Assembly (NCBI RefSeq): GCF_030689645.1
Contig: NZ_JAUYFU010000036.1
Location: 1 to 64,000 of the forward strand
From: Humidesulfovibrio sp.
GTDB taxonomy: Bacteria; Desulfobacterota; Desulfovibrionia; Desulfovibrionales; Desulfovibrionaceae
DNA length: 64,000 bases
Direction of reading: 5' to 3'
Shown: piece after piece, positions 24,128-53,858 of the stretch
Layout of the letters: each line of letters opens with the position of its first letter
How positions within the stretch are numbered: position 1 is the first letter of the stretch
Made by a program: the position numbers and the translations under genes
Notes under the pieces: model-generated
Seen by the model: only the letters and a program-made list of their open reading frames with translations
What the model was told of the DNA's origin: nothing
Databases searched by the model: none

Positions 24128-24164
24128 GAGAGCCGTATGCGACGGAAACGCGCCTGTACGGTTC
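24128..24164 (+). ncRNA. Group II intron domain V-like hairpin
   Basis: The sequence opens GAGCCGTATGCGA and closes TGTACGGTTC. The outer stem GAGCCGTA/TACGGTTC is fully paired and includes the AGC triad, with a GAAA loop, as in domain V of bacterial group II introns. The distal stem is imperfect, so this may be a decayed copy. Confidence 0.6.
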
Positions 24165-24220
24165 GGGATCCAGCGGCACAAGCTACTTTTGCGTTAGCAG
24201 AAGGTGTGAAGTGTCGTTGA

Positions 24221-24900
24221 GATCATGGCTATCAACGAGTTGGTGCGCTTGGATACGTTGAATGCTGCAAACCTGGGAAACCCAGGTCACGGGACGACAC
24301 CTACGCCCTCACGGGCTTGGATCGTGACGTGGAAGGGGCATGGCGGCTGCGCGTGACGAAACCGGCTGGCAACCGGAAATAAGCACGATGCGGCTAGAGC
24401 AGCCATGCTAAAGGGCGAAAGCCCGACCCGCACCGCTACGGCGACGAGAGGAACTATCGCTATAAAACTCATGTACTAGCCTTGGAGTACCGCCTCGCTG
24501 TGACACCTCGGGGGCCGAAAGAAGCAGATGCCAGGAAGAATGCCCTGGCGGTGAAATCATGAGCACAGATAGCGCCTAAGGCGGTTGATATCGGCATGTG
24601 GGGTAAAAGCCCACGGCGGCGTACTGACAAGATACTAGCTGGCTATCAACTGGCTTGGAAAGTGCCGTTTCAATGGAATCGAGGATGTACCCTGTACGCC
24701 GATTCGGCGTGCAGGGTACAGAGGTCTCATAGTAACCCCCTGCAAAGGCAACGTCTGCGCCCGACCACGGACAAACAATCCGTGGCAGGTATCGGTTGGC
24801 TACCGAGCTGTAAGCGAAGGGCAGACGGGACGAGGAAATGCGTCCGGGCAAAGGAGACTAGGTCGGTCAAGGCAGGATTCCGAATCATGGATCATCAAAT
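24221..24900 (+). ncRNA. Group II intron 5' domain-like structured RNA, no intron ORF
   Basis: From GTGCGCTTGGATACG (24221) onward the DNA is dense in short GC stems and GAAA-type loops, for example CCTGGGAAACCCAGG (24268) and GGGCGAAAGCCC. The end, near AGGTCGGTCAAGGCAGGATT (24860), resembles the segment that precedes intron reverse-transcriptase genes. No reverse transcriptase follows; a terminator hairpin lies at once downstream. The domain V-like piece lies upstream, not downstream, so the parts are out of normal order. The assignment rests on resemblance by eye. Confidence 0.45.
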
Positions 24901-27055: not shown

Positions 27056-28771
27056 CTACTTTGCCTCCTCGTCATCTTCGGTTCCAAGCTGCATGACGGC
27101 GCGGCCTGCGTAGCTTCGGGCAGTCAGGGTGCCCTTGGCGCCGATGCGCTTGCTCTTTTCGATGCGCGTCCATTCGCGCTTCACAAGCTCGTAGACGGTG
27201 CCAGCGCGTGTCTTGATGCGGATCATGTGATCCTCGTGGAACGCGACATCCTCGATGACAGCGCGCATCTGATCCGCGATGCGCACCCGGCGGGAGTAGA
27301 CGGCCTCTTCAGACATGTCGATGCCTTCTGGCATCTTCTCGCCGTAGGCTTCCTCCACGAGGCGGAACAGACCCGCAGATTGGGCGGCCTCGCGAGCTTC
27401 AGCCGCGCCGGCGCGCGCCGTAGCAAGCTGCTCCTCCAGTTCTGTGCGCCGCTTGCGGTTCTTCGCTAGCGCCTGAATGAGTTCGGGCATGTCCCCGAGG
27501 TCGTCGTTCTCCAGCGTCTCGATCATGCGGCCAATGGTGGCCTTTACCCGGATGAGTTGCGCGTCCAGCTCCTTCACACGCTCCTGATTCTGCTTCTGCC
27601 GCTCGACGTGCATACCGGCGGCCTCGATGATGTCGATATCGGACAGGACGCCGGACAGGATGAAGTTTTCCATATGCAAGTAGCTGTAGTACTGTTTGTT
27701 CTTGCACCCGCTTTTCTTGAGAGAGCTTGAACATGCCAGATAGAGCGCCCAAGGCCGCAGACCACTTTTCCTCGTGACATCTTTTGTATGGTTAAGGTAG
27801 CGCATCCGCGCGCCGCATACATCGCAGCGGGTCATGCCTTGGAAAAGATTCGCGTATTTTTTGCCCTTCCTCCCGGCGTGGTTCTCACGCCGAAGCCGGG
27901 TTTTATCCTGGATCAACTCGAATGTGTCCCTATCGATTATAGCCGGGTAGTAGCCTTCGATGGTCTCGATGATTTTCCTGCCGCCCGCTGTGGTCACTTC
28001 TGGCAGGTATTCGCCGATGACAGCCCGGTTATGAAGCAACTTGAAGATGTAGCTTTGGTGCCAGACGGGCTTGCGTTTGTTCCAAGCCTGCACGCCATTC
28101 TCCGTCAGCAGGTCGGCGATCTTGCCCTGCCCCTTGCCCTCCGAGTACCAGGCGAATATCCGTTTGACGATCTCGACGCGCTCTGGGATCAGTTTGAACT
28201 TGCCGTTTTTGACTTTCATCCAGTGAGGACATTGTTTGGTGACAGGGATTCCCTTCTTGGCTTTCTCCCGCTTTGTCTTCCAATTTTCGAGGGATCGCAC
28301 GGACTTCATGGCGCTCTCTTTGTTTGAGCGCGCCATGTCGTTGAGCAGTTGCAGGAAATCATCGAAGTTGATTTCGCTGAAGATTTTGTCCTCGGAGATG
28401 ATGCCGAGCAAAAGGCCGTAGTCGAAAATGTTGAGTAAAAGCCGTATGGAGGGTTGAAGTTCGTCTCGCGACAGGCGGTCCACCGACTCGACAATCAGGA
28501 GCGTTCCCTTCTCGAGTGTACCTTTTTGCGCTATCTTGAGGAACTCGGCCAATTCGCCATGTAAGGCATTCGAACTGCGGAACGCGGACTTGCCGATGTC
28601 TTGCAGGTAGTCGACGATCTCGTACCCGTGCCGGGTCGAGAACTCCTGCGCTGTATCGCGCTGTCGGCGCTCGCCGTCGCCGGCGGCTTGCGCTTGCGAG
28701 GAGAGGCGGATGTAAGCATACGCCTTGGCCATGGGCCGAGGGACCGGAGCGGTCGCGGTGGGTTTCTTCAT
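27056..28771 (-). CDS. Large serine recombinase / integrase
   Basis: A 571-residue site-specific recombinase. The N-terminal resolvase domain (residues about 12-160) contains the catalytic Ser region YIRLSSQAQAAG and ESVDRLSRDELQ. A recombinase domain follows (RIFAWYSEGKGQGKIADLL, about 215-300). Then comes a zinc ribbon (CDVCGARMRYL then ACSSSLKKSGCKNK, about 322-365) and a long coiled coil (about 385-470). Such enzymes integrate phages and islands at short att sites. It sits at the right end of the island and beside repeat copy A, so it is the likely integrase of the 21.2-28.9 kb segment. Confidence 0.9.
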   Translation of the reverse strand: MKKPTATAPVPRPMAKAYAYIRLSSQAQAAGDGERRQRDTAQEFSTRHGYEIVDYLQDIGKSAFRSSNALHGELAEFLKIAQKGTLEKGTLLIVESVDRLSRDELQPSIRLLLNIFDYGLLLGIISEDKIFSEINFDDFLQLLNDMARSNKESAMKSVRSLENWKTKREKAKKGIPVTKQCPHWMKVKNGKFKLIPERVEIVKRIFAWYSEGKGQGKIADLLTENGVQAWNKRKPVWHQSYIFKLLHNRAVIGEYLPEVTTAGGRKIIETIEGYYPAIIDRDTFELIQDKTRLRRENHAGRKGKKYANLFQGMTRCDVCGARMRYLNHTKDVTRKSGLRPWALYLACSSSLKKSGCKNKQYYSYLHMENFILSGVLSDIDIIEAAGMHVERQKQNQERVKELDAQLIRVKATIGRMIETLENDDLGDMPELIQALAKNRKRRTELEEQLATARAGAAEAREAAQSAGLFRLVEEAYGEKMPEGIDMSEEAVYSRRVRIADQMRAVIEDVAFHEDHMIRIKTRAGTVYELVKREWTRIEKSKRIGAKGTLTARSYAGRAVMQLGTEDDEEAK

Positions 28772-28909
28772 GCTTCCAATTATAGCGACCCGGGCGAAAG
28801 GCAGCCAGGAAATTTTTTAGGGTGCCAGAGTAAAACTGAAAGAGGCAAGGCTAGTCATGCCAGACCGTTGTGAACATGGCAGGATATCATTTTAATACAT
28901 CCACAGTGC

Positions 28910-29253
28910 CCGCCAGAGGGCATGCGCCCTCTGGACTCCGCAGGCTCGCCGGGCGCAACGCCCGGCGAGGGCGCTGCCCAAGGGGGCGGGCAGGGCTGTC
29001 GTGGGCGGCTTTGCGGACTCCCCGTCAATCTCCGACTCGGCTTTGCGGCGCGTAGCACCGCAAAGCCGAGTCGGGCTGATTGAGGGGAAGCGCCCGGTTT
29101 TGGAGTGTTGGAGAGGGGCGGGAGAAGGCGCGGGAAACACCCCCATCCCGACACCTTTGCAAGCGAAAGGGCTTGGGTCGAGCGAAGCTCGTCCCAAGCC
29201 CTTTCGCTTGCCCTGAGGGGGGCCCGGGGGGGAATCATTCCCCCCCGGAAAAA
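28910..29253. repeat. Structured ~340-bp dispersed repeat, copy A
   Basis: This copy shares the same order of five hairpins with copy B at 51762-52095. H1: CCAGAGGGC/GCCCTCTGG (28913-28934). H2: CTCGCCGGGCG/CGCCCGGCGAG (near 28944-28968). H3: a 17-bp perfect stem at 29032-29074. H4: a stem of over 20 bp at 29160-29210 (CAAGCGAAAGGGCTTGGG and its complement). H5: CCGGGGGGGAATCATTCCCC... (29224-29248). Stems differ from copy B by paired changes. It lies between the recombinase gene and the terminase gene, and the terminase stop codon falls in the H5 loop. Confidence 0.85.
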
Positions 29254-30719
29254 AATCCTTCCCGTTCTCCTCTCCCTCCTCTTTCATTGACGGCCTTAGC
29301 TTGGCGCATCCTCGCTGGTCCTTGAGGCGTCAGCAGCCGTAGCCCTTCGCCAGCGCCCACCAGCAGGTACTGCGCGGCTTCGCAGACGTGGGAGAAGCGG
29401 TTTTTTTCGGGCGCGTCGGTGTAGCGGTCCTCGCCGCTGACGAGCAGCCTGCGGTAGCGCCAGGCCCCGGCCATGCCGCGAATGAGCGTGCGGCAGCGGG
29501 GCGAGAGCATGAGCCCCGGCGCGCCGTCGATGTTGCGGCTAAGGGCGGCGGCCATGGCTTCGCGCCGCAGCAGCGGGTCGTTGGTGGTTGTTGGCCGGGC
29601 GTGCAGGCCCTTTGCGCGCAGGATGTCGTAGGGCGTACGTTCGTCGGTTTGGGCGCGGGCCATGCCTGCCGGGTCGCCCCAGATGACCGGGGTGAGTTGT
29701 GCGTAGCGTTCGTGCAGCAGGTCGTTGAGCAGAGCGGCGAAGCGCACCATGCCCATATTTTGGGACACGAGCTCGTCGAGGAATAGCCACCGGCCATCAG
29801 GCAGGCGCTGGGCCAGCGCGGCGGCCGGGGTCAGGCCGAAGTCCAGCCCCACAAAGAGCGGCAGTCCGTCAACGGCGTCGAGGGGAGCCTGGGCGACGTG
29901 CCGGGCCTCGTCGAACTCCGGGTACACGGGCATGCCGTCCTGCACGAACCCGTATTTGCCGCAATAGTAGACACGCACGTGGCGCGGGTTTTTACCGGCC
30001 ATGCGCCGCAGATAGAAATCCTTGGGCAGGTGGGGCAGGTTTTCGGCCTGGGGGTTGGGGTGGAAGGCACCGTCGATTTCCTGGAGCCCGCCAGGCTGGC
30101 GGAAGAAGTCCCAGCCCTCTGGCTTCTGTTCCTCGGCCAGGCGGTGCCACCAGTGGTCGGCATCGGGCGGGTTGGTGTCCATGATGACCCCGGCCCAGGA
30201 GCAGCCGCCCTCCCGCGCGGAGGGGAAGCGCTCCACGCGGTCGCCTAGGGCCTCGATGAGCGAGAGCGGCAGCTCGCGCGCCTCGTTGACCCAGGCTCCG
30301 GTGAGCTCCAGCGACAGCAGCTTCTTCAGGTCCTGCGGCTTGTCCAGGGCGCGGAACAGGAACTCGGCCTCTATGCTTGTTCCATCGTCCAGCGGCAGGT
30401 GCAGGTGGTGGGTCATTTCGGTGCGTGCAAAGGGGCCGAAGTCGTCCTCAGGGAACCAGGACAGCCAGGTCTTGAGAGTGGTGTCCTTGAGTTCGCGGTA
30501 GGTGTTGCGCACCACGGCAAAACGTGTGCGGCGCAGGCCGGTCGCGTCCGGGGCCTGGGCCTTGGCCTTGGCCATGAGCTCAATGGAGCAGGCCGAGGAC
30601 TTGCCGGAGCCCACCGGGCCCATGAGGCCCCGGTACAGGGCGCGCGAGGCCATGAACCGGGCCACGGTCGGCGGCGGGGAGTAGTGGACGCGGAGGAGGT
30701 CGGGCTTTGTTTCGTTCAT
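29235..30719 (-). CDS. Orphan phage terminase large subunit
   Basis: A 494-residue TerL-like protein. The ATPase half has Walker A GPVGSGKS (residues 34-41) and a Walker B-like segment with a catalytic Glu (LELTGAWVNEARE). The nuclease half begins GLDFGLTPAAALAQ. In phages this motor packages DNA into the head. No small subunit, portal or capsid gene is near; neighbours are a repeat element and a two-component system. ATG 30719 fits the family start better than the 63-residue extension. Codon use looks like that of the core genome, and the C-terminus (EGFFSGGE) is encoded by the repeat element, hinting at 3' replacement. Confidence 0.85.
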   Translation of the reverse strand: MNETKPDLLRVHYSPPPTVARFMASRALYRGLMGPVGSGKSSACSIELMAKAKAQAPDATGLRRTRFAVVRNTYRELKDTTLKTWLSWFPEDDFGPFARTEMTHHLHLPLDDGTSIEAEFLFRALDKPQDLKKLLSLELTGAWVNEARELPLSLIEALGDRVERFPSAREGGCSWAGVIMDTNPPDADHWWHRLAEEQKPEGWDFFRQPGGLQEIDGAFHPNPQAENLPHLPKDFYLRRMAGKNPRHVRVYYCGKYGFVQDGMPVYPEFDEARHVAQAPLDAVDGLPLFVGLDFGLTPAAALAQRLPDGRWLFLDELVSQNMGMVRFAALLNDLLHERYAQLTPVIWGDPAGMARAQTDERTPYDILRAKGLHARPTTTNDPLLRREAMAAALSRNIDGAPGLMLSPRCRTLIRGMAGAWRYRRLLVSGEDRYTDAPEKNRFSHVCEAAQYLLVGAGEGLRLLTPQGPARMRQAKAVNERGGRGEREGFFSGGE

Positions 30720-30940
30720 GGTCTGGCAGTGTAGCACGGCCTGCCCGGTGCGGACAAAAAACGCCATGATATGGCCGGTAAAAAGACAAAATAAGCCTGT
30801 TGACACCGTTGTTGTCCAGGGTGGTGGAAACTTGTTCGCGCCGGCTCGGCAACAGGCAAAGGGGCGCAGGGGCACGCGGCGCGCCGCGGCTGACAAGCGT
30901 GCCCGCATGCGTTATGCTGTTGAGGGTAAGGAGGCCACGC

Positions 30941-50626: not shown

Positions 50627-51349
50627 ATGATGGCCAAACGCCCCGCTCCGGTTCTGCAAAGCGTTTTGTTCGACCTGCCCCCACATCTTCAGGCAGGTCT
50701 GCACGCCGGGGTGGATGAGGCCGGGCGCGGCTGTCTGGCCGGGCCTGTGGTCTCCGCAGCCTGCATCCTGCCCCAAGGCTTCGACCTGCCCGGACTCACC
50801 GACTCCAAGACCCTGACCGCCCAGCGGCGCGAAGCCCTTGCCCGCGCCATCCGCTCCCAGGCCTTGGCCTGGTCCTTGGGGCTTGCCTGGCCCCGCGAGA
50901 TAGACCGCGTGAACATCCTGCAAGCCAGCCTGCGCAGCATGGAGCGCGCCGTGGCGCGCCTGCGCCTTGCGCCCGCCCTGCTGCTCATCGACGGCAACCA
51001 GGCCATTCAGGCCAGCCTGCCCCAGCGCACGGTCATCGGCGGCGATGCCCTGGTGCCCGCCATCTCCGCCGCTAGCATTCTCGCCAAGACCTTCCGCGAC
51101 CACCTGCTGACAATACTCGACCGCCTGCACCCGGGCTACGAACTCGCCGTGCACAAAGGTTACGGCACCGCTGTACATCTTGCCGCCCTCAAGGCTCTCG
51201 GCCCCTCGCCCATCCACCGCATGACCTTCCGCGGCGTGCGGCCAGATGCCCCGGCCAGCCCTGCCGCCGCCAACCCCGCACAGGAGCGCCAGTCATGTCT
51301 GCCCGGAATCCCGACGACAGCCGTTTTGAAGCCCGGCACCTCGAAGTAG
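50627..51349 (+). CDS. rnhB: Ribonuclease HII
   Basis: A 240-residue enzyme that cleaves RNA in RNA-DNA hybrids and removes single ribonucleotides. The type 2 active site is seen in [35 protein letters not shown] and HKGYGT. Starts at 50627 or 50630 are both possible (GGGGACG just upstream). The 3' end overlaps yraN by 55 nt. Confidence 0.95.
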
Positions 51350-51732
51350 GGCGCCTGGGCGAAGACGCCGCCGCCACCCACCTGGAGGCCAAGGGGCTGC
51401 GCGTCCTGAAGCGCAACGTGGTTCTTGGACGTCTGGAGCTTGACCTCGTGTGCGAGGACGCGGACACTCTGGTATTCGTGGAAGTGAAGACGCGGGCTGA
51501 AGGCTCCCTGGCCAGCCCCGCAGACGGCCTGACAACGCAAAAACGCTCGCGCCTGCAACGTGCGGCCCAAAGCTACCTCTCGCGCTACGACCTCTGGCAT
51601 CGGCCTTGCCGCTTCGACCTCGTGTCCGTGCTGTTCCGCGCCGGAAAGGTCGCGCTCATCGAACACTTCGAAAACGCTCTCACCGCCGATGAACCGCGTG
51701 CAGGCAAGACCAGTAACTGGCAGCCTTGGTGA
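51295..51732 (+). CDS. YraN/UPF0102 nuclease-fold protein
   Basis: A 145-residue protein with the PD-(D/E)xK-like core of UPF0102: [20 protein letters not shown], then [19 protein letters not shown]. Its role is unproven, though Holliday junction-type nuclease folds are related. Start 51295 has CAGGAG upstream and overlaps rnhB. Repeat copy B begins shortly after its stop. Confidence 0.9.
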
Positions 51733-51761
51733 GTGGGAAGCAGGGGCGCCGCCCCTTAACC

Positions 51762-52095
51762 CCGCCAAAGGGCATGCGCCCTTTGGAATCCGCAGGCTCG
51801 CCGGGCGGGACGCCCGTCGAGGGCGCTGCCCAAGGCAGCGGGCAGGGCTGGCGTGGGAGGCATCGCGGACTCCCCGTCAATCTCCGGCGCGGCTTCGCGG
51901 CGCTGCGCACCGCAAAACCGCGCCGGGCCGATTGAGGGGAAGCGCCCGTTTGGGGAGTGTAGAGATGGCGAGGGAAACGCTCCCATCCCGACACCTTTGC
52001 AAGCGAAAGGGCTTGGGTCGAGCATTGCTCGACCCAAGCCCTTTCGCTTGCCCTGAGGGGGGCCCGGGGGGGGGAATCATTCCCCCCCGGAAAAA
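51762..52095. repeat. Structured ~340-bp dispersed repeat, copy B
   Basis: This copy has the same five hairpins and order as copy A at 28910. H1: CCAAAGGGC/GCCCTTTGG (51765-51786). H2: CTCGCCGGGCG/CGCCCGTCGAG. H3: 51884-51926, 15 of 17 pairs. H4: 52000-52050, a stem of more than 20 bp extended through GGGTCGAGC/GCTCGACCC. H5: 52064-52090. It lies between the convergent yraN and aor genes. Relative to copy A, H1 and H3 show base-pair-preserving double changes. Confidence 0.85.
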
Positions 52096-52109: not shown

Positions 52110-53858
52110 TTACGCTTGTTCTTTCTCTTCCTGTCCCAGTTCAATGAGCTTGGCAGCGTAAGTCTGGCGCAGGGTCTCCATGAACTCGGTATCGATGGCT
52201 CCCTTCCAGGTAACGACTTCGCTGTAGCGCTTGGGTATTTTGGTCTGCATGGGCGCGTAGCCGGAGCGCATCCTGAGCCGCCAGCGCAGGCGCTGGATTG
52301 CGCCGCCAGCGGCATCCAGATCTGTTTCGGCATAGCCCAGGGAGCTGAGGGCCTGTTGCAGGCGCTCGGTGGAGTACACGCCGCGCGCGAACAGGCAGCC
52401 CACCATGCTGGTGAGCACGATGCGGCTGGCCTCGTCCTTCACAAACCCGGCCACGATCTTGGGCGCGTCCTTGTCCTGTGGCTTCTGGTCGGCGGAGTAG
52501 GCGCTGGAGTCCAGGTGCGAGTGCCGGAAGCTTAAGGACTCGGACACGAAGAAGCTCTCGCCCGTGGCGTAGCCTGCCATTTCCTGTCCCAGCACGCAGG
52601 CGTAGTCCTCGCCGCGATAGTGCAGGGCGGCCTTCATGGTGCCCTGGGCCAGGCGCTTGTAGAACTCGTTGGTGCCCACGCCCAGGTGGTGGATGGCGGT
52701 CTTGTAGCCTGCTGCGTCGCCGAACTTCAGAGGCGTCAGGGTCTCGGCCTCTGTGATGTGCCCTTTTTCAAGGGCCTCGGTGGCCCAGGCCAGGGCCACG
52801 CCGCCGCTCATGCAGTCCAGCCCTTCGCGCTCGACAGCGTCCATGAGTCCCAGCACGCCGAACCCGTCGGTCATGCCGAGCATGGACCCCAGGGAGAATA
52901 TGGGCTCGTAGTCGTAGGCCACCTGCCGGTACAGGTAGCGGTTGTCTGCCATGAATTTCTCGCGCAGGTAGCCGATGTGGATGCAGCCCACAGGGCAGCC
53001 AGCGCAGGCGGTGTTCCTGAGCAGCATATCCTTGGCGAAACGCTCGCCGCTGATGCCGTCGATGCCGGGGTCGGTGGTGGCCTGGAGGTTGCGCCAGGGC
53101 AGGGACTTCAGCTCATTGAGCGCGGCCACGTTCCCGGCGGTGCCCAGGTCGTGGTACTTGCTCATCATTGTGGTTTCGGTGAGCTGCTCGTAGATCTCCT
53201 TGAAGACCTTGGCGTACTCCTTGCCTTCGGGCAGCGAGAATGAAGAATCGCCCTGGATGGCGATGGCCTTGAGGTTCTTTGCGCCCATGACCGCGCCAGC
53301 GCCCATGCGGCCGAAGTGGCGGTAGGTGTCCACGTTGATGCAGGCGTAGGCGCAGCCCGTCTCGCCCGCCGGGCCGATGCGCAGGATGCTGCGCATGCCG
53401 GAGCCGGGCAGCATGTTGCGCACCATCTTGCCCGTGGTGAACACATCCTTGCCCCACAGGAAGGGCGCGTCCTTGATGTCCATGTGTTTGGCGCCCACCG
53501 AGAGCACGCAGGGCCGACTGGCTTTGCCGGTGATGACCAGGGCGTCCATGTCGGCGAAGCGCAGGGCCAGGGCGCTGCGCCCGCCCGCGTGGCTCTCCGT
53601 GTACTGGCCGTGGTAGGGCGAAAGGAACGAGCACACGGTCTTGCTCATGAGCGGGAAATAGCCCGTCAGCGGGCCGATGGCGAAGATGAGCGGCTGCTTG
53701 GGATCGGTCCAGGCGGCGCTGGTGTCGCCGTACTTCTCGAACAAGAGCGCGCCCAGGCCGGAGCCGCCGAGCCAGACCTCGCGGCCTGGGACGTTCTCCA
53801 CATGGGTCTTGCGGGTGGTGAGGTTGACGATGACGACGCGGAAATGCGGGCGGATCAT
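52110..53858 (-). CDS. aor: Tungsten-type aldehyde:ferredoxin oxidoreductase
   Basis: A 582-residue oxidoreductase that uses a tungsto- or molybdo-bispterin and one [4Fe-4S] cluster to interconvert aldehydes or acids with ferredoxin electrons. The N-terminal domain is typical (WLGGSGLGALLFEKY, FAIGPLTGYFPLMSKT). Cofactor-domain segments include GPAGETGCAYACINVDTYRHFGR (in parts) and MGAGAVMGAKNLKAI. Cluster cysteines lie in CAGCPVGC, with a later Cys in MVGCLFARGVY. The start has AGGAGG 7 nt upstream and overlaps the ferredoxin gene by 4 nt. Which aldehyde it uses is unknown. Confidence 0.93.
   Translation of the reverse strand: MIRPHFRVVIVNLTTRKTHVENVPGREVWLGGSGLGALLFEKYGDTSAAWTDPKQPLIFAIGPLTGYFPLMSKTVCSFLSPYHGQYTESHAGGRSALALRFADMDALVITGKASRPCVLSVGAKHMDIKDAPFLWGKDVFTTGKMVRNMLPGSGMRSILRIGPAGETGCAYACINVDTYRHFGRMGAGAVMGAKNLKAIAIQGDSSFSLPEGKEYAKVFKEIYEQLTETTMMSKYHDLGTAGNVAALNELKSLPWRNLQATTDPGIDGISGERFAKDMLLRNTACAGCPVGCIHIGYLREKFMADNRYLYRQVAYDYEPIFSLGSMLGMTDGFGVLGLMDAVEREGLDCMSGGVALAWATEALEKGHITEAETLTPLKFGDAAGYKTAIHHLGVGTNEFYKRLAQGTMKAALHYRGEDYACVLGQEMAGYATGESFFVSESLSFRHSHLDSSAYSADQKPQDKDAPKIVAGFVKDEASRIVLTSMVGCLFARGVYSTERLQQALSSLGYAETDLDAAGGAIQRLRWRLRMRSGYAPMQTKIPKRYSEVVTWKGAIDTEFMETLRQTYAAKLIELGQEEKEQA

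Follow-up and report, generated by a model that had tools for sequence, protein, structure and literature searches.

The window analysed here, the first 64,000 nucleotides of contig C51 in a 3.19-Mb draft genome of Humidesulfovibrio sp., carries two copies of a hairpin array (copies A and B) that match at 86% over ca. 340 bp and whose inverted repeats follow one another in identical order (Table 1). The full order of hairpins is H0-H1-H2-H3-H4-H5, with H0 lying 10 bases past the stop codon of a YraN-family gene in copy B and missing from copy A, where DNA of an island encoding a large serine recombinase stands in its place. The recombinase gene starts 138 bp from the junction with H1, and this junction, which forms the left edge of copy A, had not been recorded in an earlier description made from the letters alone (the sequence-only reading). 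That description had reported a ca. 340-bp repeat with five inverted repeats in the same order, the coordinates of which agree with ours, and had rightly placed both copies, in the same orientation, beyond the 3' ends of minus-strand genes. In copy A, the stop codon (29235-29237) of a minus-strand reading frame with a weak terminase hit sits within H5, and this gene may thus owe its end to the element; at copy B, the minus-strand reading frame that ends at 52110 lies 20 bases from H5. The sole Rfam match at gathering score is a group II intron end (RF00029, 41.1 bits) at 24128-24226, in the region of the recombinase island.

Table 1. Coordinates of the two hairpin arrays, their modules and the adjoining genes in the window.
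Feature	Position	Strand	Basis or remark
Large serine recombinase (Resolvase, Recombinase, zinc-ribbon domains)	27056..28771	-	domain search
CCCGC where recombinase island meets H1 of copy A; right attachment site, probable core	28909..28913	+	junction recurs in genus
Copy A of array, H1 to H5, without H0	28910..29253	+	86% match to copy B
H1, copy A	28913..28934	.	inverted repeat; genome-wide pattern sites
H2, copy A	28945..28969	.	inverted repeat
H3 inside outer stem, copy A	H3 29032-29074; outer stem 29018..29090	.	inverted repeat
H4, long hairpin, copy A, 24/25 pairs	29159..29211	.	inverted repeat
H5, copy A, then A run (T run on gene strand)	29224..29248	.	inverted repeat; genome-wide pattern sites
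ORF with weak terminase hit (below Pfam cut-off)	29235..30908	-	domain search; end beside copy A
YraN-family (UPF0102) gene	51295..51732	+	domain search; end beside copy B
Copy B of array	51762-52095; 51742..52095 with H0	+	match to copy A
H0, copy B	51742..51756	.	read in sequence; GGGGCGCCGCCCC at 51743-51755
H1, copy B	51765..51786	.	inverted repeat; genome-wide pattern sites
H2, copy B, one mismatch	51797..51821	.	inverted repeat, pair check
H3 inside outer stem, copy B	H3 51884-51926; outer stem 51870..51942	.	inverted repeat
H4, long hairpin, copy B, perfect, 26 bp	51999..52051	.	inverted repeat
H5, copy B	52065..52089	.	inverted repeat; genome-wide pattern sites
Aldehyde ferredoxin oxidoreductase-type gene	52110..53858	-	domain search; end beside copy B

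A genome-wide search with copy A gave 46 matches, part of which are the opposite strand of the same palindromes. Five copies are near-full (A, B and those at C81:32882, C1:17741 and C107:120), one more is degenerate (on C106), two are cut by contig ends (on C55 and C11), and single modules are present in dozens across the genome, with 32 sites for the H1 pattern at up to two mismatches, 21 for the H5 pattern at up to one mismatch and none for either pattern when reversed. Near-identical copies occupy unrelated loci, which bears out the earlier description of the repeat as dispersed. When read outwards from a gene, units typically begin with the stop codon, which is followed after ca. 15 to 40 bases by a GC hairpin, either H0 or an H5 that is often preceded by a T run. 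Next come a tail (e.g., GGACCCC) and then H1 or, with no H1 in between, a long hairpin; full elements carry units of this kind that face one another. The long hairpins have stems of 14 to 26 bp in a set of 55 and differ greatly in sequence between loci. Seven contigs of this genome (C55, C11, C70, C75, C107, C62 and C68) start or stop in or beside elements; since the draft assembly breaks there, the copy numbers given here are lower bounds.

Outside the window's genome, copy B found matches in at least 20 of 59 relatives, with at least 14 of 15 genomes in the genus (the best 12 candidates per genome were scored); among the matches listed, none was full-length, and the longest spanned positions 104-335 at 68% in G005. 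The H1 pattern occurs in 16 of 149 genomes and five of 44 genera of the family, a lower bound because one stem type alone was counted, and its reversed control in none. No match to the element was found among 72,556 plasmid and 50,697 phage records, and the H3 domain pattern gave a single exact match in the named genome collection, from which genomes near that of the window may be absent, to an Oscillospiraceae metagenome-assembled genome that we take as chance. Behind the YraN gene of 11 other species, we found related arrays at five loci (L105, L106, L107, L109 and L111), a lone H5-like hairpin at L101, a short GCCTCCGGCG stretch at L108 and nothing recognisable by eye at L102, L103 and L110; the remaining locus (L104, in G009) has a tandem array of ca. 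190-bp units of similar GC hairpins. We rejected the idea that copy B is an ancient conserved element, given how the content of this site varies across the 11 species. The arrays have spread both as a whole and as single modules, by a route that we infer rather than observe.

The modules have a marked relation to gene ends. H5 lies within 60 bp behind the end of a gene on the same strand in 14 of 19 cases, compared to 64 of 452 random intergenic placements, with genes called by a custom codon-usage script that missed some of them; of the other H5 units, one is at a gene start, one inside a prediction and three at contig edges. H1 is less regular: among 33 H1-type matches, at least two of which are H5 hairpins picked up by the H1 pattern, 11 are found no more than 60 bp past a gene end, one more within 150 bp and two further away, next to seven at island junctions, seven at predicted gene starts, three inside predictions and two at edges. 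In a 400-kb sample of G001, four of 11 H1 and one of two H5 are at most 60 bp past the end of a gene, versus five of 52 controls. The H5 units and many H1 units behind stop codons thus fit the "large 3'-end element" offered as one option by the sequence-only reading, and the short GC hairpins (H0, H1 and H5) are often found where two genes converge. In 56 long hairpins, the T fraction of the 3' arm is 0.23 to 0.41 at positions 2 to 8 from the outer end and 0 to 0.08 at positions 10 to 16, and only 23 of them have TTT in this arm. A scan with a terminator consensus found nothing in copies A and B, which speaks against a classical intrinsic terminator. From their placement and composition, we consider that the arrays probably end transcription from both sides and most likely leave folded mRNA ends that would protect the transcript.

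Copy A folds far more stably than shuffled sequences on either strand (z-scores of -13.4 and -14.4). Pairing is not perfect, a point absent from the sequence-only reading: in copy B, H2 has a C-T mismatch and H3 has three of the C-A kind, and in copy A there is a T-T mismatch in H4. Taking the structure from copy B and scoring covariation by pair counts over eight copies (two of them truncated), we found two-sided changes at 16 of 88 pairs versus 6.3 +/- 1.6 in shuffles, none of 500 of which reached 16; partners slid by one to three columns gave zero to four such changes, and one-sided changes were seen in two cells only. Further pair types were not above shuffles (20 versus 18.0; 86 of 500 shuffles), and in H2, H3 and its outer stem, most copies lack pairing at some of the column pairs. 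The sequence-only reading had correctly noticed the paired changes in H1, H3 and H4, and the lack of significant covariation in further copies that it named as speaking against preserved structure is not what these counts gave.

Two-sided changes and very stable folds are also what a structured RNA made from one strand would show, e.g., a 3'-UTR sRNA or a regulatory RNA, yet we regard this option, likewise raised by the sequence-only reading, as very improbable. No Rfam family reached its gathering score over copies A and B, where hits were weak and below the cut-offs, and we rejected a known RNA family on this ground; the long stems, moreover, share little sequence. We examined 55 long hairpins (56 when recomputed with more loci), which are distinct in sequence, come almost exclusively from the genus and are not independent of one another. 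Of their 1137 pairs, 28 are mismatched, read on the gene strand as six G-T, 11 A-C and 11 others; the hairpin search favours perfect stems, a bias from which the ratio of mismatch kinds alone is free. In a study of Bacillus cereus terminators, the intermediate met most often was G-U (PMC5381666), whereas the long stems show, on small numbers, no preference for G-U on the gene strand, which makes a one-strand RNA unlikely. The same spectrum is compatible with a two-sided terminator, because a G-U pair on one strand corresponds to A-C on its complement, with a DNA hairpin or with correction of one arm by the other through template switching. In the last case, the paired changes would be unselected, the arms being made identical during replication on hairpins that merely happen to spread, and template switching is described to homogenise the arms of inverted repeats in the relevant section of PMC8604942. 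The near absence of one-sided changes would follow, as would stems that are unrelated in sequence but almost perfectly paired and mismatches without wobble preference. We nevertheless consider this doubtful as a full account, since it leaves the place of H5 behind genes and the T-rich outer arms unexplained. Dozens of unrelated long stems in the same frame offer a test case for distinguishing selection on hairpins from palindrome correction.

The spread of the arrays could also be that of a miniature transposon with hairpin ends that is moved in trans by a transposase, in which case the place behind genes would simply be where insertion is harmless. Copies do run from H0 to H5 with unrelated sequence on either side, and an orthologous pair of YraN and thioesterase genes, convergent in G001 and G008 and, by the gene end read, also in G002, has an array in its gap in G001 and G002 and only the short stretch GCCTCCGGCG in G008. 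The array of G001 (L111) moreover has inverted ends GCCTCCGGCGG..CCGCCGGAGGC. Against this stand the modules found singly and in other orders, the orientation bias of H5, the absence by eye of a target duplication in the flanks read, and a search for the Y1 transposase family (PF01797), which was negative in all 15 genomes of the genus and positive in five of 14 control genomes. We therefore find a transposon of this kind unlikely, somewhat more so than template switching; of the "non-autonomous mobile element" that the sequence-only reading had suggested, the presence of an array in two species and its absence in a third at one gene pair stands, and neither a target duplication nor a transposase of the family searched has come to light.

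The interpretation as 3'-end elements is extended by the island at copy A, as like junctions lie at six further places in the genome (on C49, C45, C106, C36, C78 and C1), involving two recombinase subfamilies with some genes broken or cut. The window recombinase has matches in 13 of 15 genomes of the genus, in some as fragments only, and none was confirmed in viral contigs. We compared the upstream flanks of 30 recombinase loci, 25 from genus subfamilies (at least 42% identity) and five from distant homologues (30-34%), leaving out L113, which has no flank, the broken gene on C1 and other short fragments. CCCGC with a hairpin of 8 bp or more immediately after it stands in 24 of the 25 genus flanks, which are partly dependent given that several islands are closely related, in none of the five distant ones and in 16 of 2000 windows drawn at random from G001 (largely coding DNA); the one exception, L130, has a weaker hairpin. 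The right junction is constant and the arrays beyond it differ, and since the hairpins and the DNA beyond the junction vary, they belong to the target and not to the island. By this comparison of junctions, the linker between H0 and H1 resembles an attachment site present in many copies.

The gap between the YraN and thioesterase genes contains both an unsplit and a split form of this site. Behind the thioesterase gene of G001, the array starts with H0-CACCCCGCC-H1; the 3' arm of this H1 (L164) has an insert of ca. 60 bp with its own inverted repeat. In G004, the two gene ends are on different contigs. Past the thioesterase gene, H0-GGACCCCGC gives way to other DNA, and past the YraN gene comes array-H1-CGGGATCTGG, with a recombinase after it; an island inserted into the linker would produce this arrangement. 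This split locus is the only one at which the left end of an island was seen, on a separate contig from the right end. The identification of the left end is tentative, as the same sequence is also present in G001 behind a different gene (L183), with no recombinase listed on that contig.

Known BIMEs are bound by gyrase, IHF or Pol I. REP and BIME sequences of enterobacteria and pseudomonads are described in the cited sections as intergenic palindromes in composite arrays of alternating orientation with many copies per genome (PMC2817692, PMC3733652), and the arrays studied here similarly are composite, intergenic, present in both orientations and numerous. They differ from those descriptions in having hairpins without a GTAG/CGTC tag, much longer and variable inner hairpins and a genus without RAYT; with no Y1 transposase in its 15 genomes, we rejected RAYT-driven REPs. 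By eye, no such tag stands beside the hairpins, with CGTC occurring only inside the outer stem of H3, and at the sites listed the bases before H1 are (C)CGCC or GGCC and those before H5 are T runs or C-rich. IS621 and ISPa11 of the IS110 family target REPs (PMC1525189, in part) and so also aim at a multicopy intergenic palindrome, but the enzyme here would be the large serine recombinase of an island that joins at the linker between two hairpins. The multi-targeting large serine recombinases portrayed in the cited part of PMC10083194 likewise include related enzymes at many sites of one genome, though with an AT-rich target with a TT core and a DUF4368 domain, whereas the site here is GC-rich and tied to hairpin repeats and no DUF4368 was among the hits listed. 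Bidirectional intrinsic terminators share with our elements the GC core, the A-rich 5' and T-rich 3' outer arms and the position between convergent genes, but the present elements are dispersed, are flanked by more hairpins, have weak T runs and were negative in the consensus scan. The mosaic RIME and ABC elements of rhizobia are also intergenic with several large palindromes each.

We favour, at a probability of roughly 60%, the view that these arrays form a new, BIME-like family of 3'-end elements that are mosaics of palindromes and also serve as a landing pad for serine-recombinase islands. Short GC hairpins (H0, H1 and H5) would be placed behind stop codons, often between converging genes, and enclose long hairpins with a GC core and A-rich and T-rich outer arms; the whole array would terminate transcripts arriving from either side, whose 3' ends would remain folded. 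Island-borne large serine recombinases may use the linker in H0-ACCCCGCC-H1 as a multicopy attachment site, and one such island would, judging from the junctions compared, have replaced H0 of copy A. Whether the dispersed repeat is a shared docking site of at least two recombinase subfamilies across the genus, with the host offering many harmless sites behind genes and recombinases and hairpins co-evolving, we rate as an even bet. Our literature search, which covered its sources in part, returned no case of a palindromic 3'-end repeat as docking site for large serine recombinases. If true, this would be the recombinase-island counterpart of the IS elements that target REPs; islands could avoid damage to genes by targeting an intergenic repeat with many copies, and the genus would provide a natural, testable set of GC-rich sites with matching recombinases.

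A further regularity concerns the three bases behind H1-type hairpins, which follow the 3' arm in 139 matches at the loci fetched. We discarded a triplex as its cause, which by our reasoning fits one tail position and not the other. The pairs of stem and tail are TTT with AAT (30), TCT with ACT (30), CCC with ACC (9) and CTT with AAC (6), and exceptions include TTT with GAT (3) and TCT with ACA (3).
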